A DNA stretch of 64,000 bases, taken from Fragilaria crotonensis (lineage: Eukaryota > Bacillariophyta > Fragilariophyceae > Fragilariales > Fragilariaceae). Both the position numbers and the translations under genes were made by a program. This document shows positions 30,332 through 63,245 of the stretch, one piece after another. Numbering within the stretch: the first letter of the stretch is position 1; each line of letters starts with the position of its first letter. The stretch spans positions 124,001 through 188,000 of the forward strand of contig JAKSYS010000001.1 in NCBI GenBank assembly GCA_022925895.1. The letters run 5' to 3'. The notes beneath the pieces were generated by a model. The model saw only the letters and a program-made list of their open reading frames with translations. It was not told the DNA's origin and did not search any database.

Positions 30332-31918
30332 TTAGGGTTCATGATTCTGCAGATGAGTGTGGTTACGGGCAAGGTGCTCAACAAAGCACCGTTTTCCATT
30401 TTTTGTTGAACAAAGAAACACCGTTTTTCCGTTTTCCTCGCAGTCACTGCACTGCCAAGTGGTCTTTGTTTGGCACTCTTTGCAGCGGCCTTGATACCTA
30501 AATGTTGTCGGCTGACCATTAATGTTGTTCTTGAAGCGTTTGATAGGGGTCAAATGAGCAAGCACACCCGATTTAGGACTTCCACTTTCAACTGCCTTGA
30601 TGCACGCCTCTTGTTGAAAAGATCTCCTTGCTGCTGACGACGGTTGCCCCCTGTTATTGTAGTCATTATCAAAAAGCTCTTCTGCAAGCACTGAATAGAA
30701 CTCTTTCTGATTAAGTGCTCTACCCTGGGTAAAAGCATTGTACACAAGCCAACTGTCAACAACAATCATGGCAAAAATTGAGAGGTTCACGCGTGTTGAC
30801 CAATTGACAGTTTCAACTTTCTTTTCAATGCGAAGATCGTCCTGCCGTAACCTGTTATGTTTGTCAATTGCACTGCATGTTGAATAGTATATCTCCACAA
30901 TTTGCGGTTGACTAACGACCAGGTTCACCTTTTGTGGAGGGGCATTTGGCTCGTCACTGACTTGCCTCCAGCGACAGCGAGTATATGGCGTTCCAGCCTG
31001 CAGGGATCCTGCAGTTGCGATAAAGTATCGTCGCTCACGATCCATCCACACAAATGATGCAAGCTGAGGATCACCCACATTGGCAGGCATGGCTGTCGTG
31101 AGAGCACGGAAGTCACCACGTCGTTCAAGCTCAACACCCGACAAATATGATTTTGGAAAGCCTTTTGTAGCCGTCTTGACGACGCCGATAAATCGAAGGC
31201 CGTGCTTGTACAACTCGTTGGCTGCACCGACCGAAGCAAAGTAGGAATCTGCACACACAATTCTGTGAGAACCAAACCAAGGCGAAACCACATTCAACAA
31301 GACATTTGTGCCATGCAGTAAGCTAGTTTCGGTTGGAACACCATCATCTTCATCGTTGACCAGGTCAACACCCTTCACCAACTTCAACCGCAACATTACT
31401 CCACTCTCACCACAAGCGGCGTTCTGTATTTCACAACCATTCTCGGGCTTTCTATCAATGACTATGTATTGAGGGAGGCCATGATTGATCCAATGACCCC
31501 CCTGTCCATACCAACGGCTCATGGACTCATCAACACAAATGCGATCTGAAGGACTGAAGTGGTCTGCTCGGTGGTCGTTGAAGTTTGTCACAAAGTCATC
31601 CACCAACTTCCAACGATATGTCTCCGAACATTCTGCGCCCTGCTGAGGTGGCTGGTGACTCCACCTCACACATTCGAAGAGTTCCTCAAACCTGTTCCTT
31701 GACATTCCGGTTTGTCCAAAATGTGGTGCCGGCCGATACTTCGATGTTGCAACAGTGTTCCACAGGCTTCTCCTTGACGTGAACTTGAACTTGGTGGTTA
31801 GGATAATCACTCCAAAGAACTTTAACATCTCACTGGTATTTGTCTTTGCAAAAGTGTCTGCATCCAGTTGAGTATTTGAAAGTCTCACCATGGCAAGGAG
31901 CTGTTTGGGCGGAAACAT
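30332..31918 (-). CDS. piggyBac transposase, catalytic part (ORF2)
   Basis: 528 residues from the ATG at 31918. This is the DDE_Tnp_1_7 fold of piggyBac: an N-terminal helical part (TSEMLKFFGVIILTTKFKF...LWNT....MSRNRFEELFECVRW), the first catalytic Asp in ICVDESMSRWYG, the second in VCADSYFAS, and the third in SAIDKHNRLRQDD. The insertion region with VWMDRERRYFIATAGS and WRQVSDEPNAPPQKV is family-typical. A C-terminal Cys/His cluster (CKECQTKTTWQCSDCEENGKTVFLC....CFVEHLARNH) matches the RING-like zinc finger that binds transposon ends. All three Asp are present and the frame is open, so the catalytic part appears intact. Confidence 0.9.
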   Translation of the reverse strand: MFPPKQLLAMVRLSNTQLDADTFAKTNTSEMLKFFGVIILTTKFKFTSRRSLWNTVATSKYRPAPHFGQTGMSRNRFEELFECVRWSHQPPQQGAECSETYRWKLVDDFVTNFNDHRADHFSPSDRICVDESMSRWYGQGGHWINHGLPQYIVIDRKPENGCEIQNAACGESGVMLRLKLVKGVDLVNDEDDGVPTETSLLHGTNVLLNVVSPWFGSHRIVCADSYFASVGAANELYKHGLRFIGVVKTATKGFPKSYLSGVELERRGDFRALTTAMPANVGDPQLASFVWMDRERRYFIATAGSLQAGTPYTRCRWRQVSDEPNAPPQKVNLVVSQPQIVEIYYSTCSAIDKHNRLRQDDLRIEKKVETVNWSTRVNLSIFAMIVVDSWLVYNAFTQGRALNQKEFYSVLAEELFDNDYNNRGQPSSAARRSFQQEACIKAVESGSPKSGVLAHLTPIKRFKNNINGQPTTFRYQGRCKECQTKTTWQCSDCEENGKTVFLCSTKNGKRCFVEHLARNHTHLQNHEP

Positions 31919-37788: not shown

Positions 37789-38864
37789 TTAAGGGAAAGG
37801 CTTGGGAGGAACAGTACCTCCGGGGCATGATGAGACATGGACCGGAGGCTGTACACCAACCAACAAGTCACACTGCTCTTGAGGTGTACGCGCATAAAAG
37901 GCAGTCAACGCAGAAGGAACAGTTGTGGGAGCTCCGCCGTATGGAGCACCAGCTGCATTCCAGGCACGACCAATAAAGCAACTATCAACGCAACCAGTCA
38001 GTGGGTTGAACTTGGCAGCACAGTGACGCAACCCGTTCATGTGGTTGGTAGTGTACTCCTGGACGAAAACCTTTCCACCCGCAACAAACATGTCGACGCG
38101 AATGTATACACCGACTCTCGCACCAGCGTCCAAGGCAATATCCAGCATTTCTTGCTTGAGGCATTCATCCACGTCAGAAGGAATGCTGTTTTCGTCACAG
38201 ATGTACAAATCCTTCTTCACAGGGCCAGCACGGCGCTTTCCTGTAATGAAGTCAATTGCGGTACATCCGTTCGCTTCAACAGATCCAACACCACCAGGTT
38301 CAAAGCAACCAAACTGATCAAGGCGATTCCAGTTCTTGTCAACAACAGCGTAGCAAGGACAATCAGCACCGCGGCCTGTGATAATGTCAATCGCAACAAC
38401 TTCGCCATTGACGACGTGGAACTTGTATTCCGTCGGCAGGCTTGTACCGACGAACTCCTCAACAATGATTTTGGTAGCCTGCATCAACGAGAGCTCGGCA
38501 ACAACCTCCGCATAAGTGGTGATAGTGTTATCGAGCAAATTGATAGTTCCATTGCCAGCCGGATTGGGCACAAGAACGTAGACACCTTGACTAGAATGGA
38601 AGTTGGTGGCTTTGATAACCACTCCATCAACTGAAGAAGGCACATTATTCAAAAAGCAAGAGCTCAACTCAGAGGCATTAGTGACACAGCAGAATATTTC
38701 AGGGGCAGAAACCCCTTGCTCGACAGAGAGAAGATATGCCGCAACCTTATCTTCCAGGTAGTGAAACCAATACCCCTCATTCGCAACAGCACTGGGGTTG
38801 TTACGAACAGCGGAGGTGCGGTTCTGAATCAATGCTGGGAAAGATTCCGACACGTTACAGTAAT
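37789..38864 (-). other. last exon of the giant gene: ATP-grasp (TupA-like) domain
   Basis: After splicing, the frame runs [16 protein letters not shown]. It continues [37 protein letters not shown] (nucleotide-binding Lys region), [11 protein letters not shown]....[16 protein letters not shown] (the EE-F hinge motif), then [31 protein letters not shown] (metal-binding D/E/N set). This order is that of ATP-grasp ligases of the TupA-like kind. The domain ends with Cys-rich segments ([15 protein letters not shown]) and a Pro-rich tail. Being on a secreted protein it could act in the ER/Golgi lumen or be a degenerate binding module; the key residues look present. Confidence 0.75.
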
Positions 38865-41800
38865 CTGAATACCAGAAAGGTAAGAAACAAGAAACAACAA
38901 ATCCATGAGCAAGCAAGGTATCAACTTACCCAACGAACGCGAAGGGGCACACAATTTACAGGTAGGATCCGGAACAATCGCACAGAAATCGGGAGGAGAG
39001 CTAGGAGGGCCACGCGGAATTGGCGCGGACGTAGGAGGACGAGAAGTATCAGGAATTGAAAGTCGATCGATGAAATTGTTGCCGCCGTCCTTCTCGCCAG
39101 GAGTGATGGTCACAACAATCTTGTTGTCGGGCACTGTGTTGCTATCATCCGCATCACCATCTGGAGTCTCATCGTAGTCGCTCACATCAGAGTATCCAGG
39201 TGGGTTGGTCTCGGTCAACGTGTAGTTTCCTGGTGGAAGACCAACGAACGTGTATTCACCGTTGCTGTCCGTCACAGTAGTCACGGTGCTTCCATCTGGC
39301 TTGGTCAAGGTGAGGGTCACGTTCTTCAGAGGCTCGCCCACCTCATCGGTGATAACTCCGGTGATCGATCCCTTGTCACTGTCAACGAAATTGTTGCCAG
39401 TGTCGACTTCTTGCGGCTTGACAGTCACTCCGATGATATTGTCCACCTTGGTGTCGGAATCGGGTACGTCGCCATCTGGAGTGGCATCATAGTCGCTGAC
39501 GTCCACTGGGTACAACGGAAGCACGGGCTCAACAACGTCGTAGTCGCCAGGAGGAATGTTGGTGAACAGGTATTCTCCCAAATCATTCGTGGTCGTCGTT
39601 GCGATCACTTCACCAGAAGAAGTCTGCAACACCAAAGGAACATCCTTGATTGGCTTGCCGTCATCGTCCGTCACAGAACCCGACACAGACCCAGTGAGAG
39701 GGAGAGTTGGCGCAGGAGTCACGGGGCTCGCACTTGGAGCCGACGAATCCAGTGTATTAACAAAGTTGTTGCCGCCGTCCTTCTCGCCAGGAGTGATGGT
39801 CACAACAATCTTGTTGTCGGGCACTGTGTTGCTATCATCCGCATCACCATCTGGAGTCTCATCGTAGTCGCTCACATCAGAGTATCCAGGTGGGTTGGTC
39901 TCGGTCAACGTGTAGTTTCCTGGTGGAAGACCAACGAACGTGTATTCACCGTTGCTGTCCGTCACAGTAGTCACGAGGCTTCCATCTGGCTTGGTCAAGG
40001 TGAGGGTCACGTTCTTCAGAGGCTCGCCCACCTCATCGGTGATAACTCCGGTGATCGATCCCTTGTCGCTGTCAACGAAATTGTTGCCAGTGTCAACTTC
40101 TTGCGGCTTGACAGTCACTCCGATGATATTGTCCACCTTGGTGTCGGCATCGGGTACGTCGCCATCTGGAGTGGCATCATAGTCGCTGACGTCCACTGGG
40201 TACAACGGAAGCACGGGCTCAACAACGTTGTAGTCGCCAGGAGGAATGTTGGTGAACAGGTATTCTCCCAAATCATTCGTGGTCGTCGTTGCGATCACTT
40301 CACCAGTAGGAGTCTGCAACACCAAAGGAACATCCTTGATTGGCTTGCCGTCATCGTCCGTCACGGAACCCGACACAGACCCAGTGAGAGGGAGAGTTGG
40401 CGCAGGAGTCACGGGGCTCGCACTTGGAGCCGACGAATCCAGTGTATTAACGAAGTTGTTGCCGCCGTCCTTCTCGCCAGGAGTGATGGTCACAACAATC
40501 TTGTTGTCGGGCACTGTGTTGCTATCATCCGCATCACCATCTGGAGTCTCATCGTAGTCGCTCACATCAGAGTATCCAGGTGGGTTGGTCTCGGTCAACG
40601 TGTAGTTTCCTGGTGGAAGACCAACGAACGTGTATTCACCGTTGCTGTCCGTCACAGTAGTCACGGTGCTTCCATCTGGCTTGGTCAAGGTGAGGGTCAC
40701 GTTCTTCAGAGGCTCGCCCACCTCATCGGTGATAACTCCAGTGATCGATCCCTTGTCGCTGTCAACGAAATTGTTGCCAGTGTCAACTTCTTGCGGCTTA
40801 ACAGTCACTCCGATGATATTGTCCACCTTGGTGTCGGCATCGGGTACGTCGCCATCTGGAGTTGTATCATAGTCGCTGAGGTCCACTGGGTACAACGGAA
40901 GCACGGGCTCAACAACGTTGTAGTCGCCAGGAGGAATGTTGGTGAACAGGTATTCTCCCAAATCATTCGTGGTCGTCGTTGCGATCACTTCACCAGAAGG
41001 AGTCTGCAACACCAAAGGAACATCCTTGATTGGCTTGCCGTCATCGTCCGTCACAGAACCCGACACAGACCCAGTGAGAGGGAGAGTTGGCGCAGGAGTC
41101 ACGGGGCTCGCGCTTGGAGCCGATGAATCCAGTGTATTAACGAAGTTGTTGCCGCCGTCCTTCTCGCCAGGAGTGATGGTCACAACAATCTTGTTGTCGG
41201 GTACTGTGTTGCTATCATCCGCATCGCCATCTGGAGTCTCATCGTAGTCGCTCACATCAGAGTATCCAGGTGGGTTGGTCTCGGTCAACGTGTAGTTTCC
41301 TGGTGGAAGACCAACGAACGTGTATTCACCGTTGCTGTCCGTCACAGTAGTCACGGTGCTTCCATCAGGCTTGGTCAAGGTGAGGGTCACGTTCTTCAGA
41401 GGCTCGCCCACCTCATCGGTGATAACTCCGGTGATCGATCCCTTGTCGCTGTCAACGAAATTGTTGCCAGTGTCAACTTCTTGCGGCTTAACAGTCACTC
41501 CGATGATATTGTCCACCTTGGTGTCGGCATCGGGTACGTCGCCATCTGGAGTGGTATCATAGTCGCTGACGTCCACTGGGTACAACGGAAGCACGGGCTC
41601 AACAACGTTGTAGTCGCCAGGAGGAATGTTGGTGAACAGGTATTCTCCCAAATCATTCGTGGTCGTCGTTGCGATCACTTCACCAGAAGAAGTCTGCAAC
41701 ACCAAAGGAACATCCTTGATTGGCTTGCCGTCATCGTCCGTCACAGAACCAGACACAGACCCAGTGAGAGGGAGAGTTGGCGCAGGAGTCACGGGGCTCG

Positions 41801-44800
41801 CACTTGGAGCCGACGAATCCAGTGTATTAACGAAGTTGTTGCCGCCGTCCTTCTCGCCAGGAGTGATGGTCACAACAATCTTGTTGTCGGGCACTGTGTT
41901 GCTATCATCCGCATCACCATCTGGAGTCTCATCGTAGTCGCTCACATCAGAGTATCCAGGTGGGTTGGTCTCGGTCAACGTGTAGGTTCCTGGTGGAAGA
42001 CCAACGAACGTGTATTCACCGTTGCTGTCCGTCACAGTAGTCACGGTGCTTCCATCAGGCTTGGTCAAGGTGAGGGTCACGTTCTTCAGAGGCTCGCCCA
42101 CCTCATCGGTGATAACTCCGGTGATCGATCCCTTGTCGCTGTCAACGAAATTGTTGCCAGTGTCAACTTCTTGCGGCTTAACAGTCACTCCGATGATATT
42201 GTCCACCTTGGTGTCGGCATCGGGTACGTCGCCATCTGGGTGGTATCATAGTCGCTGACGTCCACTGGGTACAACGGAAGCACGGGCTCAACAACGTTGT
42301 AGTCGCCAGGAGGAATGTTGGTGAACAGGTATTCTCCCAAATCATTCGTGGTCGTCGTTGCGATCACTTCACCAGAAGAAGTCTGCAACACCAAAGGAAC
42401 ATCCTTGATTGGCTTGCCGTCATCGTCCGTCACAGAACCAGACACAGACCCAGTGAGAGGGAGAGTTGGCGCAGGAGTCACGGGGCTCGCACTTGGAGCC
42501 GACGAATCCAGTGTATTAACGAAGTTGTTGCCGCCGTCCTTCTCGCCAGGAGTGATGGTCACAACAATCTTGTTGTCGGGCACTGTGTTGCTATCATCCG
42601 CATCACCATCTGGAGTCTCATCGTAGTCGCTCACATCAGAGTATCCAGGTGGGTTGGTCTCGGTCAACGTGTAGTTTCCTGGTGGAAGACCAACGAACGT
42701 GTATTCACCGTTGCTGTCCGTCACAGTAGTCACGGTGCTTCCATCTGGCTTGGTCAAGGTGAGGGTCACGTTCTTCAGAGGCTCGCCCACCTCATCGGTG
42801 ATAACTCCGGTGATCGATCCCTTGTCGCTGTCAACGAAATTGTTGCCAGTGTCAACTTCTTGCGGCTTAACAGTCACTCCGATGGTATTATCCACCTTGG
42901 TGTCGGCATCGGGTACGTCGCCATCTGGAGTGGTATCATAGTCGTTGACGTCCACTGGGTACAACGGAAGCACGGGCTCAACAACGTTGTAGTCGCCAGG
43001 AGGAATGTTGGTGAACAGGTATTCTCCCAAATCATTCGTGGTCGTCGTTGCGATCACTTCACCAGTAGGAGTCTGCAACACCAAAGGAACATCCTTGATT
43101 GGCTTGCCGTCATCGTCCGTCACAATACCCGACACAGACCCAGTAAGAGGGATAGTTGGGGCAGGAGTCACTGGGCTCGCACTTGGAGCCGACGAACCCA
43201 ATGTATTAACGAAGTTGTTGCCGCCGTCCTTCTCACCAGGAGTGATGGTCACAACAATCTTGTTGTCGGGCACTGTGTTGCTATCATCCGCATCACCATC
43301 TGGAGTCTCATCATAGTCGCTCACATCAGCGTATCCAGGTGGGTTGGTCTCGGTCAACGTGTAGTCTCCTGGTGGAAGACCAACGAACGTGTATTCACCG
43401 TTGCTGTCCGTCACAGTAGTCACGGTGCTTCCATCTGGCTTGGTCAAGGTGAGTGTCACATTCTTCTGTGGCTCACCGACCTCATCAGTGACACTGCCAG
43501 AGATCGATCCCTTGTTGCTATCAACGAAATTGTTGCCGCTGTCTGCTTCACGGGGCTCGACAGTCACACCGATGGTGTTATCCACCTTAGTGTCAGCATC
43601 AGGCACGTCCCCATCAGGAGTGGTGTCGTAATCGCTCACGTCCACTGGGTACAACGGAAGTTCGGACTCAACAATATTGTAGTCGCCTGGTGGAATGTTG
43701 GTGAACACGTATTCACCCAAATCATTAGTGGTCGTCGTTGCGATTACTTCGCCCGTCGGGGACTGCAATTCCAATGCAACGCCCTTGATCGGCTTGCCGT
43801 CGTCGTCCGTCACGGAACCAGACACTGATCCTGTTAGAGGGGCAGTTGGCACAGGAGTCACAGGGCTCGCGCTGGGCGCAGACGAATCGAGTGTATCAAC
43901 AAAGTTGTTGCCGCCGTCCTTCTCGCCAGGAGTGATGGTCACAACAATCTTGTTGTCAGGCACAGTGTTGGCATCGCCAACATCACCATCTGGGGTCTCA
44001 TCATAGTCGCTCACATCAGAGAACCCAGGAGGGTTGGTCTCGGTTAATGTGTATGTGCCGGGCGGGAGACCAATAAAGGTGTATTCACCGTTGCTATCCG
44101 TCACAGTGGTCACAGTACTTCCATCAGGCTTGGTCAAAGTGAGTGTCACGTCCTTCAAAGGCTCGCCCTGCTCATCAGTCACACTGTTAATCCTACAAGT
44201 AGATCATCCTTGCAGGAAAGCATGTCTTGATTCAGTTATGAATTATCTAAAACATAGAAAAGTGAGCATTACCTTGTTCGGAGTCATCCTTCAATCCCGA
44301 GTCGTACTGTGCAGATGTAGTACCGTATAATGGTACTTGATACTTGATACATGATTCATAGCATCCTGAATGATACAGTACCGGTAGCTTGTAATATCAA
44401 CAGTCCCCGCGACTCTGAATTAAGTTCCTGAATCAGAGGCGAATCACACTTCCTGAACCGATCGACAGAGGCCCCGGCTACGTCGTTAACATATATAACC
44501 CTGCGACGGTCACCTACTGTTTTCGATGGACAGTTACCATTATATCGCGACTACCCAATTCGTGTCCCCGGGTGTTGGTCGTCGATTACCAGAGTATGTT
44601 ATGCAACAACTCCTTCATCTTCGGTCCTGGCATTAACTTTGTCAAGATATCTGCCAAGTTCGTCTGTGTGTTTTCTTTTGCCACCCTGATGGTCCCGGCA
44701 GCAATCGCTTCGCGTACGCGGTGAAAGTTAATTGCAGCGTGCTTCTTCTTGAGTGTCGATTCAGGTCGGGAATTAGTCACAACTGCCGAATTATCACAAA

Positions 44801-47800
44801 ACACGGAGCATTCCTCGGTTAGCGGAACACCCATCATCCGCAGTTTGTAACGTAGTCCCTCTATCATCTCAATCGATAGTCGCATTGCAAGTAACTCTGA
44901 ACCATACGTAGACGCCTCGACCGTATTCTGCCTCTTGGAAAACCAAAGTATCGGCGCTCGATTAACGAATATTAAGATCCCTGAATGTGACCTCCTTGTC
45001 TCTCTACACCCTGCGTGGTCAGCATCCACGAAACATGACATTGTGACATCCTTTCCACGTGGCGTCGGCATGTTTTCGGGTATTGCTTCGGCTGCGTCGG
45101 GTAGAACTCGGACCAGTCACATTTGACGAATCGCTCACCTCGGAATGTCGGGATCGTATCGTCGAACACCATTGTCGATCTCGGATGATGCTTTAAGTAT
45201 GCAAAAATATGGAAGACTTGTTCTAAATGTCCTTGTCGTGCCGATACCAAGTACCGCGACATTAACGACACCGGCATCAAAACATCAATCCTCCCAATTT
45301 CGCAAATCCATCTGAGGACGCCAATCAAACCTTGATAGTAGTTCAATTGTTTGCTCCCCAACTCCGCTGAAAGGTCTAACTCAGGCCGGTATCCACTTGC
45401 CAGCGGAGTCTTTGCATTTGGCAACAGTCTGAGATCGGCATCTTCAAGTTCCTTTTCCAGGTCGGCGATCGCCTTCTTCACGTATGAAGTTGACTCGAAC
45501 GCCCACCGCACCTTATCGGGCTCGTCAGAATCTGGGATACGGAATTTCTTTATGTCAACGCCCAAATAAGTATCTGGTTCTTTAATGCTCCGGGCTTCAA
45601 GGTAAAACGCTGTCCCAGGGCATCCATAAAGCCCTCGGATCTATTCCTTGAAAAATCAAGTCGTCCACGTACGATATGACGTACTCGTAGACTTTGTCCC
45701 CGTTCGGTTTGACCGCCGCTTTCATCCACAGATCAGGGTCAGCTTTCGACGACGCGAAGCCCAGTTCCCTTAAATTCTTAGCCAAGTAGTCGCGAAACGA
45801 TCTTCCGCTCGATCTTAAGCCATAGAGAGCTTTCGCGATTATAGCTCTTTACCATTGTACTCAGGTCCTAATTGATCAGTAAACTTAGTCCACACCTTTT
45901 CCTTATTCGGTGCCGCCAGGTAAGCATTTTGAATATCACACGACAAGAGGTCTAAATCGTTGAGAGCGGCCAAGAGGAAGAAGAGTCTCACCGTATCTCT
46001 GCTCGACAGACGCAAACGTTTGTTCCTTCGTTGCCTCGGTCATATTGCCTCGCGCTACCAATCTGGCCTTTCTAGTAAGGTCCATTTTGATGTCGAAGAC
46101 AAAATATGTATCAACGAACTCGTACCCAGGTGGAACTTTTGTGTCGTCGTCTTCGATAAACTCGAATGCAGGGAAAACGTTCCGAATCTCTTTTCGATCG
46201 CCTTCGTCCAGAAATCCGTTCCCGTTCTCTTGTCGATCGCTAACGCATGGGCGACACTTTTCGGGAGTTCTAATCCGTATTTGTGTGAAACCGACCAATA
46301 TTTCGACTTGACCTTTTTTAGAATCCTTTCTCGTTTCTTGAGTACAAATGGAACCCACCATCGGAACGCTGGTTCGTTTGACAGGTTGTTTGTAACGGCG
46401 TAGTCGGCAACTTGAACTGGGTAAGAGTCCTTTAAATCTGCCAGCGGTACCCAAGTACTGGAACCGTCTTTCCATTCGACTAATAGGCGCCAGCCCTTTG
46501 TCGTTCTCTTTGGTTTCGGTCCAGTCTTGGTAGAGTAGTACGCCTCGTCCTCTCGTAGCGCACTATGACTCTTTTCGTGGTCAACGATCTCCTGCATCAC
46601 TTGCAAGCGTCGACCATCGTCATCTATTTGCGAGTATAAACACTCAGCAATTAGATTCGCAGTGTATGTCTCCTCCGTCCCGTCCTCGAAACACACAAGG
46701 TATTCGCGGGAATCCAATAAAGGATTTGGGTTTGACGATCCAATTGGCTTTCCGTCATGATCTCTTTTCGGCTTTTCACGGTGCCGCGAAGGATATCTCC
46801 GCCGCGGTCGGTTACTATCTCAGCAGTTAAGTACTGATCAAAAGCCTCCGGGGTATAATCATCAGCGTCGGAGCGTCGGAATTCTCCTCCGTCCTCCGTT
46901 GCGTCATTCAAGTCCCCGAAGATGTCAACCAGGGAAACTGATTTTCACCAAGCTCTTCCGCCACCTCCTCGTTTGTCCGCTTATCCCTATCTTCTCTTCT
47001 ATCGATTCCAACAATTCCGCGATCTCCTCCTTCGATCTGCACGTTCATCAGGTGTTAGGGCCCAGAACGTGCTCCTCACGATGGCTTTGCCGACTTCGGT
47101 AACAGGAACGCTGCGTCCCGCCACCATAATCTTCTGCTGGCCCTAACCAGCATGCCAACTTCCGCTCGTTGTCATTGTCGAGGTAAGAAATAACTTCGTA
47201 CCAACCATGCATAACGTAGAGCGAAATATCTGGTGTCCACCCATGGACCTGTTCGAAGGCAGAGCGTCCTTGTAGATCCGGATGTGTCCCGCAACGAAGG
47301 ATCTGATCCTTGCGCAAAGGTTGACGAGATAATTCCAGAGTCTTCTTGGTGATCGCGTCTTGTCTTGGAATCTTCGGATCATCCTCTTCAACTCTCTGAT
47401 GTCCAATTCAGCCTTGTTCTGAAACGGTGAATAGGGTTCCGTGTACTTCGGATCAATTGAATACTTCGGATCCTCTTCTTCCACTCGCCCCATCCTTCCA
47501 TTGTGGCGTCGTTATCGCACAACAATACTTCTGGAATTCCCACTTTCTTGACAAAATCATCTAGCGCATAGATTGACTCGTTCTTACGCTCCATCGGGTA
47601 AGCCTTCGTGTATCCCCGGCCATTCCCAATAATGTGAGCATATCGTTGCGAATCAATTGATTTGATCTTCGGTTCCATTATGTCGGCGTAAAACATCCCC
47701 TCAACCTTGGATAGCGCAGATGTGCCATCTGAGTTTTAAACGTCGCGTCGCTGGATTCGGTATCGACCGGATTCCTTGTTGGGTGGTCACCTTCAAGGAG

Positions 47801-50800: not shown

Positions 50801-53800
50801 TCGTGTCAGTGTCAGTGGAGTCACCGTCGGGAGAAGTGTCGTAATCACTCACATCCAACGGATGGGAAACTGGATTGGACTCCTTCACTGAATATGTGCC
50901 AGGTTCCACATCGGTGAAAATGTAAACACCGTTGCTGTCAGTTGTGCTTGATGCAATCACACTTCCATCAGGATTCAAAAGCTGCACAGGAACGCCAGTC
51001 AAGGTTTGCCATCGTCGTCAGTTACTGTACCGGAAACGGAGCCGTTGTTCGTGTCAACGAAGTTGTTGCCCAAATCCTTCTCGCCAGGTTTGATCGTCAC
51101 TCCGATCACGTTGTCCGTGGTTTTGTTCGAATCTGGCGTATCGCCGTCAGGAATAGTGTCATAGTCGCTCAAATCACCAGGGAATTCAGGCAAATTCGAC
51201 TCGATTATCGAATAGTCACCAGGTTCGAGGTCCTCAAATACATACTTGCCGTTGCTGTCTGTCACAGTCGTCAAAACAACGTTACCGTCCGAGTCCTTCA
51301 ACGTGATCGGTGTTCCGGGAATAGGCGCCCCATTGTCGTCGGTCACACTTCCACTAATAACACCATTGTCACTATCAACAAAGTCGTTTCCTGCATCAGT
51401 TTCTCCGGCTTCAACCGTCACACCAACGCTGTTGTCGACCGTCGCGTTCAGATCCGTGGCGTCTCCATCTGGGATGGCATCATAATCACTAACATCATCT
51501 GGGTAGGCGGGAAGGTTGCTCTCCACAACCTTATAGGTGCCAGGCTCGACACCAACAAAACTGTACGACCCGTTCGAGTCTGTCGTTGTGGTGCCAACAA
51601 CAGTCGTTGTGGCACCATCGATTAGCTGTAGCTCAATCGGAACGCCGGCAATGGGATTGCCGTTGTCATCCTTCACTGTTCCGGTAATGGCACCGTTGTT
51701 GCTGTCGACAAAGTTGTTGTCCGTATCCTTCTCGCCGGGCTTCAATGTCACCCCGATCAGATCGTCCACTTCCCGGTCAGAATCGGTGGCATCACCGTCG
51801 TTACTGGCGTCGTAGTCGCTCACATTCAGTGGGAAACCCGAAGGATTCGTCTCCTTGATAACGTATGTGCCTGGCTCCACCTCGGTAAACACATAGAAAC
51901 CATTCGAGTCAGTCACTGTGCTCTTCAACACACTCTTGTCGGGGTTCAGCAGTTCCACCTTCACTCCTGGCAACACGTTGCCCTGGTCATCCTTCACGGT
52001 TCCAGAAATCAAGCCATTGTTGCTGTCCACAAAGTTGTTGCCAGTGTCATCTTCAGCAGGCTCAAGGGTGACAGGAATCTTGTTGTCAGCGTTCACAACG
52101 CCCTCTCCGGCATCACCATCCGGCGTCGTGTCGTAGTCGCTCACATCACCAGGATATCCGGCTGGATTCTTCTCCACCACAACGTACGAACCAGGCTCCA
52201 CACCGGGGAATGTATACACTCCATTGGTACCGGAAGTGGTGGTCGCAACAACAGTTCCATCCGGTTTCTGCAACTCGACCTCGACACCAGCAAGTGGCTT
52301 ACCCTCGTCATCCTTCACGGTCCCAGAAATAGATCCCTTGTTACTGTCAACAAAATTATTTCCATCGTCATTCTCGCCTTCTGTAAGAGTCACCTTGATC
52401 TGGTTGTCGGGATTCTTGTCACTGTCGTCAACGTCACCGTCGGGGAGATCGTCGCCATCGCTCACATCCTTAGGATATCCATCTGGGTTGGTTTCCTCCA
52501 CGACGTAATCTCCAGGGTCCACATTGTTGAAGGTGTACCCTCCTGATGGACTGGTCGTCACTGTATCAATGACGGTGCCATCGGGCAACTTCAGAACGAC
52601 AGTAACACCGACCAACGGCGTTCCCTTCTCATCCTTCACAGAACCTGAGATCGAACCGCGGTTGCTGTCAACGAAGTTATTGTCAGTGTCGTCCTCACTT
52701 GGCAACAACGTCACAGAAATGGTGTCGTCCACCACAGTATCACTATCACCAGCATCGCCATCGGGACTGTTATCGTAGTCACTCAAGCTACTTGGGAAAC
52801 CAGGAGGGTTGATTTCAACCAAATCATAATCACCCGGTTCCACATTGTTGAAGATATAAAATCCAACCGAGTCGGTTTTGGTGGTCGCGACCACAGTGTT
52901 GTTCTTGAAAAGGAAGATGGTGACAGTCTTCAAAGGATTGCCATTGTCGTCCTTGACAAATCCAGAAATAGATCCGTCGTTGCTGTCAACAAAGTCATTT
53001 CCGTCGTCGGATTCACCGGGGGACAACGAAACACCAATCTTATTGTCCACTGTTTGGTTCGTGTCAAATACGTCACTGTCTTCCGGGGTATTGTCCTTGT
53101 CACTAAGGCTGTCAGGAAAGCCCTCTGGCTGTGTCTCAACCACCGTATAGTCGCCTGGCTCAACGTCGTTGAACACGTAACCACCATCACTAATCGTCGT
53201 TGCCGTACCCACAACGTCATCATTGCTGTCTAACAAGGTCACAGTCACGCCTGGAATACCATCACCGTTGTCGTCCTTCACACTACCCGAAATCGAACCG
53301 TTGTTGCTGTCGACAAAGTCGTTGCCAACGTCATCCTCACTAGGCTCAACTGTCACAAGAATTGAGTTGTCGGGAGTTGTGTCTGTGTCACCAATATCGC
53401 CGTCGGGATCCGTGTCGCCATCGCGAACATTACTTGGATAGCCAACAGGGTTGATCTCGATCACGGAGTAATCACCAGGTACAACCCCGGTGAACTTGTA
53501 TGAACCATCAGCGGCGGTCACAGTTGTCGCAACAGTAGTCGTTCCCTGATTCAATGTGAGGATCACAGCCGCAAGCGGGTTCAACTTGTCATCGAAAACG
53601 CTGCCAGAAATGCTACCCTTGTTGCTGTCCACAAAGTCGTTGTTCGCGTCCGTCTCGCTCGGCAAAAGAGTCACAGAGATGGTATTGTCAGGAGTAAGAA
53701 CACCATCCGTAGCATCACCGTCGAAACTGGTATCGCCATCGCTGATGTCAGTCTTGTATCCATCAGGGTTCGTTTCAGTCACCGTGTATGACCCAGGTAC

Positions 53801-56800
53801 CAAGCCCGTAAACTCGTACAAGCCTTGAGCATCAGTCAGCGTGGTGGCAACAACGCCAGTCGAATCACTCAATGTAATCTTCACGCCAGCAAGCGGACTG
53901 TCGTCGTCATCTTTGACAGATCCAGAGATTTCACCAAGGTTGCTATCCATGAAGTTGTTGCCATCGTCAGTTTCTCCAGGCTGCACGGTCACGCCGATGA
54001 TATTGTCAACAGTAGTGTCGCTATCCGTCGGATCAGAGTCATTGGTGAAATCCTTGTCAAACAGATCGGCAGGATATTCATCAGGGTTGGTCTCCACCAC
54101 TGTGTAGTTGCCGGGTTCTACGTTATCGAAGACGTAAATGCCGTTGCCGTTCGTCACCGTTGTCGACACAACGGCACCCGTCGAGTTCTTCAGTGTCAGC
54201 AAAACGCTGCTGAGCGGAATCAATTTGTCGTCGGTCACGATTCCGGTAATCTTGCCGTTGTCACTGTCAACAAAGTCGTTGCCAGTATCGGTCTCACCAG
54301 GATTCAACTTCACATCAACAACGTCGTCGACGATCTTCGAAAGATCCAGAGGATCTGAATCAGGTGTAGTATCATAATCACTAACATTGTCTGGGTACGT
54401 CGCGAGATTCGTCTCAACAACCTTATACGTGCCAGGCTCAACTTCGCTGAAATCGTACGCTCCGTTGGAGTCCGTCGTCGTCGTGCCAACAACAGTCGCC
54501 GTGGCACCGTCGATGCGTTGCAGCTCAATCAGAACACCGGCAATTGGATTGCCGTTGTCATCCTTCACTGTTCCGGTGATGGCACCGTTGTTGCTGTCGA
54601 CAAAGTTGTTGTCCGTATCCTCCTCGCCTGGCTTCAGGGTGACCCCGATGAGATCGTCCACTGTTCTGTCGGAATCGGCGGCATCACCGTCGTCACTAGC
54701 GTCATAGTCGCTCACATTCAGTGGGAAACCCGAAGGATTCGTCTCCTTGATATCGTACGTGCCTGGCTCCACCTCGGTAAACACATAGAAACCACTCGAG
54801 TCAGTCACTGTGCTCTTCAACACACTCTTGTCGGGGTTCAAAGTTCCACCTTCACTCCTGGCAACACATTGCCCTGGTCATCCTTCACGGTTCCAGAAAT
54901 CAAGCCGTTGTTGCTGTCCACAAAGTTGTTGCCATTGTCATCTTCAGCAGGCTCAAGGGTGACAGGAATCTTGTTGTCAGCATTCACAACGCCCTCTCCG
55001 GCATCACCATCCGGCGTCGTGTCGTAGTCGCTCACATCACCAGGATATCCGGCTGGATTCTTCTCCACCAACACGTACGAACCAGGCTCCACGTCAGGGA
55101 ATGTGTAAGCTCCATTGGTTCCGGTAGTGGTGGTTGCAACAACAGTTCCATCCGGCTTCTGCAACTCGATCTCGACACCAGCAAGTGGCTTACCCTCATC
55201 ATCCTTCACGGTCCCAGAAATAGATCCGTTGTTGCTGTCAACAAAGTCATTGTCAGAATCAAGCTCACCAGGCTTCAGGGTTACCTTGATCAAGTTATCA
55301 GGCGTGGTGGACAAGTCATCTGCATCTCCGTCGTCGCTGACGTCCCCATCACTCAAGTTCTTCGGATAGTCCACGGGATTGGTCTCCTTCACAACATAGT
55401 CACCAGGCTCGACGTCGCTGAAAGTGTAGTTACCGATATCATTCGTCAACGTGCTGCTGATGACGGTGCTACCTTGGAGCAATTCAATCTTCACATTGAC
55501 AAGGGCTTGCCCTCGTCATCCTTCACGGTTCCAGAAATAGCAGCATTGTTTCCGTCAACGAAGTTGTTGCCGTCGTCGTTTTCGCCGGGCTTCAAAGTCA
55601 CAGGAATCGTGTTGTCGACATCAGTATTGCTGTCGCCAACATCGCCATCCGGAGTGTTATCATAGTCGCTCAAGTCACTTGGGAATCCAGGAGGGTTAAC
55701 CTCAACGACGGTGTAGCTGCCGGGTTCGACCTCTGAAAACTTGTACGCTCCAATTCCATCAGTTGTCGTGGTCTGAACAACATCAAGATTACCATCGAGC
55801 AAGGTAATAACGACACCTGGAAGGCTGTTACCATTGTCATCAAACACGCTACCAGAGATACTGCCGTTGTCACTGTCAACGAAGTTGTTCTCCTTGTCGG
55901 CCTCGCCAGCCTTGAGCGTGACGCTGATCTTGTTGTCCACTACTTTATCAACATCACCAGCATCACCGTCAGCATCTTCATCGTAATCACTGACACTGTT
56001 AGGGTAACCCGCTGGTTGCGTCTCAACCACAGTGTACTGGCCTGGCTCAACCTCGTTGAACACATATCCGCCACCGGCATTCGTCGTTGCGGTATCCACA
56101 GTGATGCCATTGTTGTCAACCAACGCCACCGTCACTCCGGGGATTGGATTGCCGTTGTCGTCCTTCACACTACCCGAAATCGAACCGTTGTTGCTGTCGA
56201 CAAAGTCGTTGCCAACGTCATCCTCACTAGGCTCAACTGTCACAGAATTGAGTTGTCGGGAGTTGTGTCTGCGTCACCAATATCGCCGTCGGGATCCGTG
56301 TCACCATCGCGAACATTACTTGGATAGCCATCAGGGTTGATCTCGATCACGGAGTAATCACCAGGTACAACCCCGGTGAACTTGTATGAACCATCAGCGG
56401 CGGTCACAGTTGTCGCAACAGTAGTCGTTCCCTGATTCAATGTGAGGATCACAGCCGCAAGCGGGTTCAACTTGTCATCGAAAACGCTGCCAGAAATGCT
56501 ACCCTTGTTGCTGTCCACAAAGTCGTTGTTCGCGTCCGTCTCGCTCGGCAAAAGAGTCACAGAGATGGTATTGTCAGGAGTAAGAACACCATCCGTAGCA
56601 TCACCGTCGAAACTGGTATCGCCATCGCTGATGTCAGTCTTGTATCCATCAGGGTTCGTTTCAGTCACCGTGTAAGGGCCTGGTTCCAAGCCTGTGAACT
56701 CGTACAATCCTTGAGCATCCGTTAGTGTGGTCGCAACAACGCCGGTCGAATCACTCAACGTTATCTTCACACCAGCAAGAGGCTTGTCTTCATCATCGGT

Positions 56801-59800
56801 GACAGAACCAGAGATGGAGGCGTTGTCACTATCGACGAAGTTGTTGCCATCGTCAGTTTCTCCAGGCTGCACGGTCACGCCGATGATATTGTCAACAGTC
56901 GTGTCGCTATCCGTCGGATCAGAGTCATTGGTGAAGTCTTGGTCGAGCAAATTTGCAGGGTATTCATCAGGGTTGGTCTCCATAACTGTGTAATTGCCAG
57001 GCTCGACGTTATCGAAGACGTAAATGCCGTTGCCGTTTGTCACAGTTGTCGACACAACGGCACCCGTCGAGTCCTTCAGTGTCAGTAGAACACTGCTGAG
57101 TGGGCTTCCATTGTCGTTCTTCACGGTTCCGGTAATCTTGCCGTTGTTACTGTCCACAAAGTCGTTGCCAGTATCGGTCTCGCCGGGACTCAACGTCACA
57201 CCAACAACATTGTCCGTCACCTTGTTTCCATCTTCGATATCACCGTCATTCGTCGTGTCATAATCATAGACGTTGATGGGATACGCCGCAAGATTGGTCT
57301 CCACAACCTTATACGTGCCCGGCTCGACTCCAGTGAATTCGTACGCTCCATTGGAGTCCGTCGTCGTGGTCGCAATTACTGTTGGGGTTGGGCCATCGGA
57401 CTGCAATTGAATGGGAACGTTGGCAATAGGATTGCCGTTGTCATCCTTCACTGTTCCGGTGATGGCACCGTTGTTGCTGTCGACAAAGTTGTTGTCCGTA
57501 TCCTCCTCACCGGGTTTCAATGTCACTCCGATGAGATTGTCCACCTTTCTGTCAGGGTCGGCGGCATCACCGTCGTCACTGGCGTCGTAGTCGCTCACAT
57601 CGAGCGGGTAGGTCGAAAGATTCGTCTCCTTGATATCGTACGTGCCTGGCTCCACCTCGGTAAACACATAGAAACCATTCGAGTCAGTCACTGTGGCCTT
57701 GACCACACTCTTGTCGGGGTTCAAAGTTCCACCTTCACTCCTGGCAACACATTGCCCTGGTCATCCTTCACGGTTCCAGAAATCAAGCCGTTGTTGCTGT
57801 CCACAAAATCATTGCCAGTATCATCTTCAGCAGGTTCCAGGGAGACAGGAATCTTGTTGTCAGCATTCACAACAACCTCTCCAGCATCACCATCCGGCGT
57901 CGTGTCGTAGTCGCTCACATCACCAGGATATCCGGCTGGATTCTTCTCCACCAACACGTACGAACCAGGCTCCACATCGGGGAATGTGTACGCTCCATTG
58001 GTACCGGTAGTGGTGGTCGCAACAACAGTTCCATCCGGTTTCTGCAACTCGATCTCGACACCAGCAAGTGGCTTGCCCTCATCATCCTTCACGGTACCAG
58101 AAATAGATCCGTTGTTGCTGTCAACAAAGTCATTGTTAGAATCAAGCTCACCAGCCTTCAGGGTTACCTTGATCAAGTCATCAGGCGTGGTGGACAGGTC
58201 ATCAGCATCTCCATCGTCACTGGCGTCCCCATCGCTCACGTTCTTCGGATAGTCCACAGGTTGGTCTCCTTCACAACATAGTCACCAGGCTCGACATTGT
58301 TGAACGTGTAGCTTCCGACAGCATTCGTGAAGACAGTATCAATAACGGACCAGCCGGACCACCCTTGAGCAATTCAATCTTCACATTCTCAAGTGGCTTG
58401 CCCTCATCATCCGTCACAGTTCCAGAGATGGCACCATCGTTGTCGTCCACGAAATTGTTGTCCTTGTCCGCTTCGCCTGGTTGAATTGTAACCGCGATAG
58501 CGTCGTCGACGGCATCATTGTTGTCACCACTATCTCCATCGTTACTCTCATCCTTGTCACTGACATTGCTTGGGAAGTCATCACGGTTGATTTCGATCAC
58601 CCTGTAGTCGCCTGGAGGGATCTTCGCAAACAGATACTTGCCGTTGGAGTCAGTCAAAGTCGTGGAAACTACGCTCGAACTGCCATCAAGAAGCGTGATG
58701 AGAACATTCGACAGCAGGTCGCCGTCCGCACTCGTCACATTACCAGAGATGGATCCCTTGTTGCTATCAACAAAGTTATTCTCCGCATCAGTCTCACCGG
58801 CCTTCAGGGTGACCTGGATCGAATTGTCAACCGTTGTGTCACTGTCACTGGCGTCGCCGTCGCCTACCTCATCTCGATCACTTATACTGATGGGGTGGCT
58901 ACCCGGCTGGATCTCGACTACTGTGTACTCACCTGGCTCGAGTTCATTGAATGAGTACTCGCCAAGCACGTTCGTTGCCGCAGTTTTGATGATGCTTCCA
59001 GCGCTATCCTTGAGCTGGATTACAACATTCTTCAACGCCTGGCCGTCGTCATCCTTCACTGTACCTGAAATCGCACCGTTGTTGCTGTCAACGAAGTCGT
59101 TGCCGGTATCACTTTCACTCTTTTGAAGAGTTACAGGAATGGAATTGTCAACTGCCTTGTTACTGTCGCCAGAGTCACCATCGGGAGTCGAGTCTTCATC
59201 ACTAACGTTACTGGGATATCCGTCGGGATTCGTTTCGACAACAAAGTAGGCGCCGGGCTCAACGTTGCTGAAGATGTACGCTCCGTTGGAATCGGTTGCA
59301 GTTGTCGCGACTGCTACCCCGGTCGATGTCGTCAGTGTCAGCGTCACACCCCCGAGAGGCTTGCCTTGGTCGTCCGTGACTGTACCAGAAATGGAACCAT
59401 TGTCGCTGTCCACAAAGTCGTTATTGTCGTCGTTCTCGCCTGGGAGAAGCACTACTCCAATGGTGCTGTCCACAGTAGTCACAGAATCGGGCGCATCGCC
59501 ATCGTTGCTGGTATCATAGTCGCTGACATCAGTGTCGTATCCAGCAGGGTTGATCTCAAACAAAGTATAAGTTCCTGGGAAGACGTCCGAAAATAGATAT
59601 GCCCCATTACCATTGGTGGCCGTTGTCCTCACGACGGCACCACTCGAATCCTTCAGTTGAACAGTCACACCAGAAAGAGGAGCACCGTTGTCGTCCTTCA
59701 CAGTACCAGAGATCGAGCCAGTCTGTGCATCAACGAAGTTGTTGTCAGAATCGGTCTCGCCGGGGGTCAGAGTGACACCAATGATGTTGTCCACATCGCT

Positions 59801-62800
59801 GTTACTGTCACTTCCGTCGCCATCCGGAGAGTTGTCATAGTCGCTGATGTCGGCTGGATGGCTGCTAGGATTGGTCTCGACCACGGTGTAGCTACCTGGT
59901 GGAATACCGTCGAAAACATAACCACCATTGCCGCCGCTCAACGTCGTCTTGATCACGGTGGTGCCAGAATTCAACTCCAGAAGTACCCCAACCAATGGGT
60001 TCGAGAAGTTGTCCGTCACAGAACCAGTGATCTTCCCCTTGTTGCTGTCAACAAAGTCGTTTCCTTTGTCGGTTTCACCAGGCTGCAACACAACGCCGAT
60101 CTTGTTATCAACGGCAATGTCAGAGTCGGTTGGGTCTGGAACGCTGTCAGGGTCCGTATCGCGGTCGCTGATATTGATCGGGAAGAGCGGTGGGTTCTCC
60201 TCGAAAACGTTGTAGCTGTCTGGTTCCAATTCACTGAACAGATAGCTGCCGTCGGTTCCAGTCAAGGTGGTTGCGACTGTAGTGCCGTCAAGAAGCTTCA
60301 GCGTGATCAGGACGGATACAAGAGGGTTTCCGTCGTCATCCTTCACAGTTCCACTGATCTTTGCGTTGTTGCTGTCCTGAAAGTTGTTGTCTGTGTCGTC
60401 CTCACCGGGGAGAAGCTTCACTCCGATTGAGTTGTTGACAGTAGTATCGCTGTCCGCAGCATCGCCGTCGCCGCTGTTATCGTAGTCACTGATGTCAAGA
60501 GGGTATCCAGATGGATTGATTTCCTGCACAATGTAGTCACCAGGAACACGATTGGTGAAAGAGTAAGTTCCAGCGGGTCCAGTGGTTTGGGACTCAACGA
60601 CGACACCTCCGAAGATCAAGTTGATAATGGCTCCCGCCAACTTGTTTCCTTTGTCATCGGTCACAACACCTGAAATAGAGCCATTCTTGAGCTTGTCAAC
60701 GAAGTCGTTCCTGACGTCGTCTTCGTTCGAGTTGAGCTTCACGAATACCTTACTGTCCACGACCACATCCCCATCTTGGGGGTCGCCATCGGGAGCCGAG
60801 TCAAAGTCGCTGACATCCTCGTAATCGGAGGAAATATTCGTCTCAACGACAGTGTAAAGGCCAGGAATCAAGCCCGAAAACTTGTAGAAACCAGTCGTAT
60901 CGGTCGAAGTGGTCGCAACGATGGCATCCGAACTGTCGCGAAGAGTGATGGTGACGGAGGCGATTGGAGGCCCGTTGAGTGTGTTCTCGAACACGAAACC
61001 GGAAATAGAACCCTTCCTTTCATCTACAAAGTCGTTTCCTGTCCTATCGGTGCCACCGATTACATTGGCCACAACAATGAGGTTGGGGTCACCCCCGTCA
61101 ATGTCCTTCACGTCAACGTAGCCACCCAAGTTGGTCTCTTTGACAGCGTAGTTGCCAGCGGTGAGGTTGATGAAAGCGTAGTTACCGTTCGCGTCTGTCA
61201 AGGTTGTGGCCAACACGTTGCTAGAACCGTCAAGCAAGGTGATCAGAACGCCTGGGATATTGACGTCGCCTGTGTCGTTGGCGTCGATATCCTCCTTCAC
61301 ATTTCCGCTGATGGTGGCGAGGAAAATTGGAGTTTCGACCTGCACAGTTACTGGCTTGGGGAATTCATTTGTTGTCACCGTCGCGAAGTTCTCGATGTTG
61401 TTGTCACCACCGCCCTTGGTAGAAATATCAGCTGCCGTCACCGTGTAATTTCCACGGTACGTGAAGGTCTCTCCGCGCTCCAGTATTCCATCAATATTCT
61501 TAGACTCGGTCGGACCAACAAGCTTGCCAGTAAGCAGGGGGTCATTTACCACAACACCGGTCAGATCGGCAAATCCAACGTTACTGACGATGATGATGTA
61601 GTTGATGATATCACCCACTTGGTCAACAGACTTGAACGGGTCCACGGAGCCATCCGGATTGATCACAGCGATGACTTCCTTGTTCAGATCGGGGTTCGCC
61701 AGAGGAAGAACGGCAGTTCCCAGATCCAATGCCTCACCATCACCCGAAAAGGAGCGGATAGGATCTTGGCCCCACGCAAGTCCAATGCTCACTGGCAAAC
61801 CAATTGGTGGTTGGCCATTAACTGGTGCGGCATCAACACTTGCAATAATGGCTCCTGTCATGTCGTTGTCATTTTCCTTTGTGTCGGTAAGGCGAAGTGA
61901 GTTGAGGGCAGTCACTCGCTGGTTGAAGTCAAACACACCGTCGCCGTCGAAGTCCACGTAGATGTACGAGTCCGCGATTGGGGTCACCCACACAACGCTC
62001 CTCTCCTTCTTCTTGCCCTGGTTATTGTTTGTAAGACACCCAGTTGTACAGCCTAAACCAAGACCTACAAGAGCCTGAGAAGTAAGCCGAGAGGTAGGAA
62101 TCATTGGAAAGCCCCAATCATAGAGCTGCCCTTGTTGGTCCGCATCAATTTGCACCAACCCATAATAGGATCCGCCAGTACCCTTGAATCGCACACCAGA
62201 GAACCTGGAAGTGAACGAACCCGTGGTTAGGGTGTCACCGGTCAGAATTTGGATTTTGTCAGCTCCTGCGGTAGTGCTGCAAGGAATCACCTTGCTGGAT
62301 TTGGCAGGAACTGTGAATGACCCACTTAGCAAATTACCACCATTGTACCCGATGGTGATGGGACTCGTGTTCGGGTTGTAAAACCAAAACGCCGTGTTTC
62401 CCAACGTTTCTGCAACTGGTGAAATGTATTCATCGGTCCAGTCATCTGAGTCAACCTGGGCATACCAACGGAGCTCGTACGTATCGTCCTTGTCGGCTCC
62501 AATCAGGTCCACTTGGATTGGACGATCAGAAGTAATCACGTCACCTTGCTTGACTGGGAAGTTGATAGACTGTCCCTTGTTGAAAGTGCCACCGACCTTG
62601 ACACCGTTCTTGAACACTTCGCTGTTGTCTTCGCCGGCCATGACGTAAAACCGAGAGATTTCCCAAGCATTCGTGGAGCTAAAAGTCGTATCGCCAACTG
62701 GGGCAATGAACTTTCGTCCCCAGGAATTGACATTGAAGACTTCCGGCACCAGCCATGAGCGATCCTGGTGCGTCAGGATACGCGAAGCGGGTGACAGCAA

Positions 62801-63245
62801 CAGGAAGGGAAGATTGAATGCGATCACTTCCGTCAAAGAAGATGTTGGCCTTCACACGAGGCACAGGCACATTGTTCGAAAGAACAATTGCTGTGCCTCC
62901 CTTCAGCTTGTCATCAAGAGTTCCGGGTGCAACACCGTTGAGTAAGTTTCCGTCACCCCAAATCAGAGTGGTGGGCTGGGTCTTGAGTCTGGCATCTGTT
63001 TCGAAGCCATCTTCCCAATGATCATAGTAGACGATGGTGTTATCAGAGGCGATGGCGATCGAAATAACGGTGTTGACATTTCCACTTGCAGGTGGAACCA
63101 CTCCCGCGGACATCTCTTTAAAAAGGGCTATGAGATCATCCTCGGGCAAGGGAACGAAGTACGTCTGAACAGGGGATGGCAACTGGGCTGTCACGAGTGA
63201 CGCCGACAGCCCAGCTGCAAAAAGGAAAGAGGCAAAAAGCTGCAT
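37789..63245 (-). CDS. giant secreted SdrD-B/Cna-B-like repeat protein with C-terminal ATP-grasp domain, split by a copia insertion
   Basis: The start ATG at 63245 opens a signal peptide ([20 protein letters not shown], cleavage near TAQ-LP). An N-terminal domain of about 600 residues follows ([61 protein letters not shown]), of a kind seen in large bacterial surface proteins, with a DUF11-like segment ([24 protein letters not shown]). Then come about 48 repeats of 100-120 residues, each G-S-I-S-G-x-V-x-D-D...Y-x-F-x-x-V-x-P-G-x-Y-x-V-x-E-T-x-P...VSDYD-x-x-PDGD....DFVDS, matching SdrD-B/Cna-B-like prealbumin folds with acidic, possibly Ca2+-binding loops. A 65-bp intron (38865-38929) joins an ATP-grasp domain. 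A copia element occupies 44185-50703. One-base frame changes lie near 62.74, 58.35, 58.26, 57.72, 56.25, 55.50, 54.84, 51.00 and 42.24 kb. Counting them and removing insertion and intron gives about 6,290 residues. A role in adhesion or extracellular matrix is inferred. Confidence 0.8.
38865..38929 (-). other. 65-bp spliceosomal intron in the giant gene
   Basis: On the minus strand it begins GTAAGTTGATACC and ends GGTATTCAG. Splicing keeps the frame (SRSL-D-YCNV) and joins the repeat region to the ATP-grasp domain. It is the only intron I could recognise in the gene. Confidence 0.8.
39060..44184 (-). repeat. 690-bp higher-order repeat array (about 7.5 copies)
   Basis: Each 690-bp unit codes for one A-type repeat ([18 protein letters not shown], ending in a Ser/Pro/Thr linker [18 protein letters not shown]) and one B-type repeat ([18 protein letters not shown]). 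The same landmark recurs at 39250, 39940, 40630, 41320, 42010, 42699 and 43389, almost exactly 690 bp apart. Units from 39 to 43 kb are nearly identical; those at 43.2-44.2 kb are more diverged, as expected for an array growing or homogenised from one side. Confidence 0.93.
44185..44402 (-). repeat. copia 3' LTR
   Basis: 218 bp, on the plus strand TGTTAATCCTAC...AATATCAACA, with TG...CA ends. I read it as identical to 50486-50703. Confidence 0.95.
50486..50703 (-). repeat. copia 5' LTR
   Basis: 218 bp, reading identical to 44185-44402. Its outer end is followed by ACAC, the target duplication. Confidence 0.95.
52009..57790 (-). repeat. ~2.89-kb higher-order repeat, two units, inside the giant gene
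   Basis: The landmark for the [17 protein letters not shown] repeat recurs at about 57781, 54899 and 52009. Between these points the order of nine different SdrD-B-like repeats is the same ([49 protein letters not shown], two variable ones, [12 protein letters not shown]), showing duplication of a nine-repeat block. A third, partial block continues from 52.0 kb towards 50.7 kb. Confidence 0.88.

Follow-up and report, generated by a model that had tools for sequence, protein, structure and literature searches.

A retrotransposon-split gene for a putatively secreted giant SdrD-B repeat protein of probable cyanobacterial ancestry in the diatom Fragilaria crotonensis

Layout of the locus

The 64,000-nucleotide stretch of Fragilaria crotonensis DNA analyzed here (contig JAKSYS010000001.1, positions 124,001 to 188,000; termed the window, to which all coordinates refer unless another contig is named) carries on its minus strand a coding region for a giant modular protein dominated by SdrD-B-type repeats. 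The reading path was built from the minus-strand stop-to-stop frames over 37-64 kb, each open stretch being read in turn. It leads from an ATG at position 63245 to a stop at 37789 and consists of 12 protein pieces that together amount to 6,303 residues, with a calculated mass of 659 kDa and a pI of 4.05. The run of SdrD-like repeats extends from 61.3 to 39.0 kb with several frame switches along the way, and a motif script counted 48 repeats, the first starting at 61312 and the last at 39365. An initial annotation, made from the sequence without database searches, had proposed about 6,300 residues and about 48 repeats on a single minus-strand reading path. Length and repeat number agree with our results and all parts indeed lie on the minus strand, but the path is not one open frame, as it is interrupted by a long terminal repeat (LTR) retrotransposon, nine frame changes and an intron. 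From the N-terminus onwards, the features are:

63186-63245, minus strand: putative signal peptide, first ~20 residues (sequence; top hydropathy window; the cyanobacterial protein L104 aligns only from its residue 116)
61313-63185, minus strand: N-terminal region, probably cyanobacteria-derived, IgGFc_binding-like and DUF7507/DUF11-like, with a frame change near 62745 (profiles, identity to L104, tree)
61010-61312, minus strand: repeat 1, divergent and without DGD loop, pairing with repeat 1 of cyanobacterial proteins (alignment score)
50704-61009, minus strand: SdrD-B-type repeats 2-33, plus the opening residues of repeat 34 (profiles, motif script)
44183-50703, minus strand: LTR retrotransposon inside repeat 34 (identical 220-nt ends at 44183-44402 and 50484-50703)
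39051-44182, minus strand: remainder of repeat 34 and repeats 35-48, with a frame change near 42231 (reading, motif script)
38930-39050, minus strand: linker, proline-rich, then cysteine-containing (sequence)
38865-38929, minus strand: intron of 65 nt, GTAAGT...TTCAG (splice-site sequence)
37789-38864, minus strand: last exon, C-terminal region of ~358 residues, possibly ATP-grasp (TupA/sugar-transfer like), then stop (sub-threshold PF14397 and PF14305; hhalign)

Repeat family, amplification and selection

In the three repeat pieces scanned, which lie outside 54841-58248 and 38931-42233, SdrD_B (PF17210) reached 304.9, 429.5 and 214.8 bits, the cut-off being 29.7, and PF13620 and the Cna-B-type family PF17802 were likewise far above their cut-offs. 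PF24346, a DUF7507/DUF11-like domain, was also above cut-off in the N-terminal region (39.7 bits, cut-off 27). Matches of the repeats in the PDB include SdrD, other Gram-positive adhesins and the FbaB domain. The acidic calcium-type loops that had been claimed for the repeats are present as D-x-D-x3-D-G-D in 41 of the 48. Over their 5,258 residues the repeats contain no cysteine, 18.7% acidic and 4.3% basic residues.

Seven consecutive repeats (58429-56497) occur again about 2.9 kb further on (55538-53611), two of these seven are present a third time (52330 and 52009), and a unit of ~690 nt, which comprises two repeats with Pro/Ser/Thr linkers (7 linkers), occupies the last third of the chain (39051-44182). 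The sequence shows that nested tandem steps raised the DGD-type repeat to 47 copies. At least 75% protein identity is shared by 60 of the 1,128 repeat pairs. In all 60, w (replacement relative to silent change) was below 1, with three pairs at 0, 49 at 0.08-0.40 and eight higher; note that the pairs share repeats and are hence not independent, and that six of the repeats carry a frame change, possibly inflating replacement counts. Values did not exceed 0.73 in 58 pairs and reached 0.98 in the other two (2 silent, 6 replacement changes); the pair 58104/55221, for example, differs by 15 silent versus 4 replacement changes. The low w of similar pairs argues that the repeat coding sequence was under selection. 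Isopeptide-forming Cna-B domains possess a conserved first-strand lysine together with glutamate and asparagine or aspartate. Such a lysine was found in 20 of the 48 repeats, with the strand position assigned by alignment, and a conserved isopeptide bond is therefore unlikely. The aligned glutamate is invariant (19 of 19 repeats). The LPxTG-like string LPLTG is present five times in the linkers of the two-repeat unit (39051-44182), which is probably a coincidence in a eukaryote.

The N-terminal region and its cyanobacterial relatives

The chain opens with a signal-like sequence which, judged by hydropathy, is its most hydrophobic 19-residue window (1.57). This is consistent with the signal peptide of the initial annotation, but a window at residue 549 in the DUF7507 part reaches nearly the same value (1.55). 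The N-terminal region that follows comprises ~630 residues and contains an IgGFc_binding-like stretch (PF17517, 30.6 bits, cut-off 25.6), which may hold a ligand site. A structure model of the region had a mean pLDDT (predicted local distance difference test) of 74 and matched a TRAP subunit over one short stretch (probability 1.00, TMt 0.42).

Genomes were searched with a 500-residue piece of the N-terminal region. The best match lies on contig C302 of genome G726 (60% over residues 3-498, E 1.7e-162); the corresponding protein, L104, is 54.9% identical to the N-terminal region over 678 aligned columns. At E 1e-6, 6 of 339 genomes from the Okeania phylum contained a match (one of them, G180, in the DUF7507 part only); so did 2 of 61 genomes of the Okeania family and, at E 1e-15, 10 of 388 genomes of the Okeania order, a search overlapping with that of the phylum. 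Among 345 Bacteroidota genomes, five matched at E 1e-6 (best 1.3e-17), only G385 beyond the DUF7507 part, and none of 246 Planctomycetota genomes did in a search without positive control. The piece had no match in plasmids or phages. Single-protein scans of genome and viral contig collections with the N-terminal region were also negative, the relatives having been found by the whole-genome searches. A tighter repeat alignment matched 64 bacterial and archaeal loci; viral contigs yielded no relative with the mixed or the tighter repeat alignment or with a 1,279-residue query.

In Okeania sp. SIO2C9 (G001), apparently the same gene is present on two contigs (56% and 64%) and continues into two repeats, followed by DUF11 domains and an RTX stretch. 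L104 and the Okeania frames L089 and L090, which we join as one gene by inference, are 52-65% identical to the window protein in the N-terminal region. The Okeania-family protein shares its domain order with the window protein, i.e., N-terminal region, DUF7507, repeat 1 and repeat 2, and the DGD-type repeat 2 is also found in the G726 protein. The proteins differ at both ends and in repeat number: L104 opens with ~115 other residues where the window protein has its signal-like start, two repeats were seen in G001 and at least three in G726 as compared to 48 in the window, and the window protein has amplified repeats and a new C-terminus where the G001 protein has a DUF11/RTX tail. Neither a DUF11 tandem nor an RTX C-terminus was among the families found for 42245-44182 (25 best of 35) and 37792-38865, or seen by eye in 38931-42233.

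In a tree of 14 rows (the window, 12 cyanobacterial sequences and one from Bacteroidota), the window grouped with three rows from cyanobacteria (support 100/100), and G726 and Okeania adjoined at 93/91. In approximately unbiased (AU) tests, a clade of six cyanobacterial rows excluding the window was rejected (p 1.9e-9), and grouping the three nearest cyanobacterial rows together without the window gave p 0.03, these groups having been chosen after the tree was seen. Repeat 1 of the window pairs with cyanobacterial repeat 1 at a score of 255, the next window repeat reaching 168. Window repeats 2 to 12 each had their best match, among nine cyanobacterial repeats compared, in repeat 2 of G726. 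Since the relatives are spread among cyanobacteria, the transfer probably went from bacteria to the eukaryote. The bacterial ancestry proposed earlier thus holds for the N-terminal region, for which identity, tree and AU test narrow it to cyanobacteria.

Algal contamination of the Okeania assembly was considered and rejected, because three of eight other open frames on its two contigs exceed the cut-off of bacterial models (lysine-tRNA ligase, MsrP and TnpB); three scored lower and two were unmatched. This check covered the two Okeania contigs. The TnpB gene (L089:10862-11791) runs opposite to the frame of the Okeania homologue and overlaps it at its truncated 5' end, perhaps as an insertion into that gene. 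A further cyanobacterial relative (L120:2839-8619) carries 11 repeats of SdrD-B type and ends in sequence that matches RTX and PEP-CTERM below threshold.

Retrotransposon, frame changes and intron

The LTR retrotransposon of ~6.5 kb (~44183-50703) divides the chain into 4,193 residues upstream and 2,110 downstream. Its two 220-nt ends are 100% identical, with the exact ends uncertain by ~2 bases, and this identity points to a recent insertion. Once the ends are set two bases shorter, GTGT flanks the element on both sides, and joining the flanks without the element restores the repeat sequence in frame. Open frames in the interior are broken several times. One of seven pieces matched RVT_2 at 23.6 bits (cut-off 31.6), and judged by this reverse-transcriptase family we take the element to be copia-type. 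Read-through into the element is predicted to add 36 residues before a stop. The sequenced allele, in which the chain is split after 33 repeats, should yield a truncated product at most.

Single missing bases in units otherwise close to an intact paralogue are a typical pattern of consensus errors in long-read assemblies. Eight of the nine frame changes correspond to one missing base and lie in repeats near 58340, 58250, 57724, 56242, 55500, 54841, 51003 and 42231; the ninth, near 62745, is equivalent to the gain of one base or the loss of two. Alignment to paralogous repeats placed a single-base gap at six breaks (j2b, j3, j3b, j4, j5 and j7); longer gaps appeared at j2a, j6 could not be aligned to paralogues, and for these two the frame itself is the evidence. 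Each break is a change of frame, and at none does a stop codon interrupt a frame that continues beyond it. We read the frame changes mostly as consensus errors of the assembly, an interpretation short of proof. Programmed frameshifting was rejected because the breaks share no common site, although two of them (57724 and 54841) do lie at the equivalent place in duplicated units. Ahead of the last exon the path crosses a canonical 65-nt GTAAGT..CAG intron.

The last exon

An ATP-grasp domain, as stated in the initial annotation, is weakly supported: PF14397 reached 17.9 bits against a cut-off of 31.4 and PF14305 16.0 against 25, and there was no NCBIfam match. Alignment of the exon product to one TupA protein with hhalign scored 24.8, with 20 shuffles at or below 16.1, and a single-sequence structure prediction had a mean pLDDT of 36. 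The last exon may thus be ATP-grasp. Among 61 Bacteroidota genomes, the ATP-grasp searches found a single TupA gene and, at E 1e-20, no PF14397. A match to the viral contig L001 was discarded as a short chance match in a 4,113-residue frame (L001:860-13198).

Graspetide ligases in bacteria offer a comparison for a far bolder proposal, according to which a cyanobacterial stalk was captured, its calcium-locked bead amplified from a handful of copies to 47, and an ATP-grasp ligase fused that would cross-link the Asp/Glu/Lys/Ser/Thr-rich repeats of its own chain in the Golgi lumen. If true, the ligase-fused chain would form an adhesive cable that cures itself and can be tuned by calcium. We attach very little credence to it.

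Proposed origin and function, and alternatives

We consider it fairly probable that the locus is a nuclear gene, derived from the Okeania group, for a giant secreted filament protein forming a calcium-stiffened adhesive or matrix fibre, the present copy being split by the retrotransposon. The source of the N-terminal region and the founding repeats would have been a filamentous marine cyanobacterium related to Okeania; after capture, a signal peptide, an intron and a different C-terminus would have been added to the gene, while its DGD-type repeat multiplied in nested tandem steps. Exported via the secretory pathway, the prealbumin-like repeats would take up calcium in seawater and form an acidic stalk that is stiff and bears force; the N-terminal region carried on it would bind polysaccharide or other partners. 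The giant trail proteins of diatoms are a close precedent for such a role in adhesion or in the matrix, which is plausible. Calcium-bound B domains of SdrG and SdrD unfold above 2 nN, with forces dropping on calcium removal (PMC6232131), which makes the window repeats good candidates for a force-bearing stalk. The locus would offer a candidate donor lineage together with a before-and-after view of a bacterial surface protein turning into a giant eukaryotic secreted filament, and the apparent route of conversion, with the export signal swapped, the N-terminal region and first repeat kept and one bead amplified. If the protein is adhesive, its repeats belong to a type known for extreme calcium-dependent strength, and the strength of an algal glue could be tested on single recombinant beads.

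Several observations weigh against this reading. The retrotransposon and the nine frame changes mean that the allele may be dead. The strict calcium-type loop is missing from seven of the 48 repeats, in one case at a frame change. Compared with PDB sequences, the repeats match best to NOMO2, which is an endogenous endoplasmic reticulum protein of eukaryotes with the same fold, so that the repeats alone give no proof of bacterial origin, which depends on the N-terminal region and repeat 1. No whole-domain fold match to the N-terminal model was convincing among the 50 rows listed (top TMq 0.17), which makes the ligand-binding role a guess, and hydropathy revealed no clear membrane anchor. The protein might be secreted and yet serve as a cell-wall-associated protein, in recognition (mating or bacteria-binding) or as a decoy. 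The anatomy indeed points to secretion and a stalk rather than to a ligand, and SdrD_B, which PMC12028343 lists for diatom chitinase-family proteins, is not bound to adhesion. Repeat type, size and acidic composition, on the other hand, resemble force-bearing stalks and giant trail proteins, and we regard a non-adhesive role as possible but doubtful.

That the gene is a recent pseudogene, with retrotransposon and frameshifts real and no functional allele left, strikes us as unlikely, though it has to be taken seriously. The split of repeat 34 and the nine frame changes are what this explanation expects, the breaks at 57724 and 54841 look as if inherited by duplication, and errors are not everywhere, given that for TCP-1, a short-chain dehydrogenase and a DDE transposase alike a single open frame covers most of the Pfam profile. 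The absence of any in-frame stop argues the other way, as do the single missing bases at eight of the nine breaks, some of which (j4, j7) lie in units nearly identical to an intact paralogue, and the recent date of the insertion indicated by the identical LTRs. Improbable, in our view, is a division into two or more genes, i.e., one for the repeat protein and another for the C-terminal ATP-grasp part. It would account for a last exon in another frame behind an intron, and for a last-exon product that had no match in G001, where the Okeania homologue resides, or in 244 cyanobacterial genomes, both searched without positive control. Yet the canonical intron links the frames, and the first methionine of the last exon's open frame falls inside the PF14397-like stretch. 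Bacterial contamination or a chimeric assembly would explain the high identity to cyanobacteria and is extremely improbable: the TCP-1/cpn60, PDCD2_C and BTB genes near the repeat gene, the GT-AG intron and the internal LTR retrotransposon fit residence in a eukaryote, and the GC content of N-terminal region and repeats is 0.51-0.53 as compared to 0.37-0.45 in the contigs of the homologues.

Comparison with known proteins

The staphylococcal SdrD/SdrG stalks, which have few B repeats, have the repeat family PF17210 and acidic calcium-type loops in common with the window protein, from which they differ in that the latter is eukaryotic and has 48 repeats. The cut-offs of the NCBIfam whole-protein models of MSCRAMM adhesins were not reached in pieces of the chain (SdrD 117.1 bits versus 2,500; SdrC 82.9 versus 1,700). 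To the Cna-B/SpaA/FbaB CnaB2 domains the window repeats are linked by the prealbumin-like fold, the PF17802 scores and the FbaB matches in the PDB; they are unlike the isopeptide-forming members in that the first-strand lysine is not conserved. The GDPH motif of diatom GDPH/vWD adhesive proteins does not occur in the 6,303 residues.

Trails of the diatom Craspedostauros australis hold two giant modular proteins, CaTrailin4 of ~900 kDa and Ca5609 of more than 1 MDa (PMC11420354), and the title of a 2023 paper cited there says that trail proteins were acquired by horizontal transfer from bacteria. The window protein resembles both in very large size, modular build and probable bacterial acquisition; the trail proteins are secreted into trails, and secretion of the window protein is predicted. 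CaTrailin_4 has an ice-binding-protein-like beta-helical structure (PMC10713564). SdrD_B (PF17210) is listed among the domains of chitinase-family proteins of Thalassiosira weissflogii, for which the available part of the source describes no long repeat chain (PMC12028343). A bacterium-derived giant algal adhesive and SdrD_B in a diatom are thus already known. No report of a giant diatom protein of SdrD/Cna-B/prealbumin-like/IgGFc-binding/DUF11 type was among the literature matches listed, which comprised open-licence papers only, and within this literature the protein appears to be a variant of its own by virtue of its cyanobacterial donor, its chain of 48 beads and its possible fusion to ATP-grasp.

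Other features of the window

Outside the repeat gene, positions 30332-31918 hold an open DDE_Tnp_1_7 transposase frame of 528 residues, presumably piggyBac-like. A tandem duplication of 426 nt lies at 11237-12064 (1.9 copies, 97%) and a tandem array of 119 nt at 23163-23517 (3.0 copies, 97%). At 10082-10272, the 8-nt unit TGGAGTAG forms a perfect tandem array of 23.9 copies.

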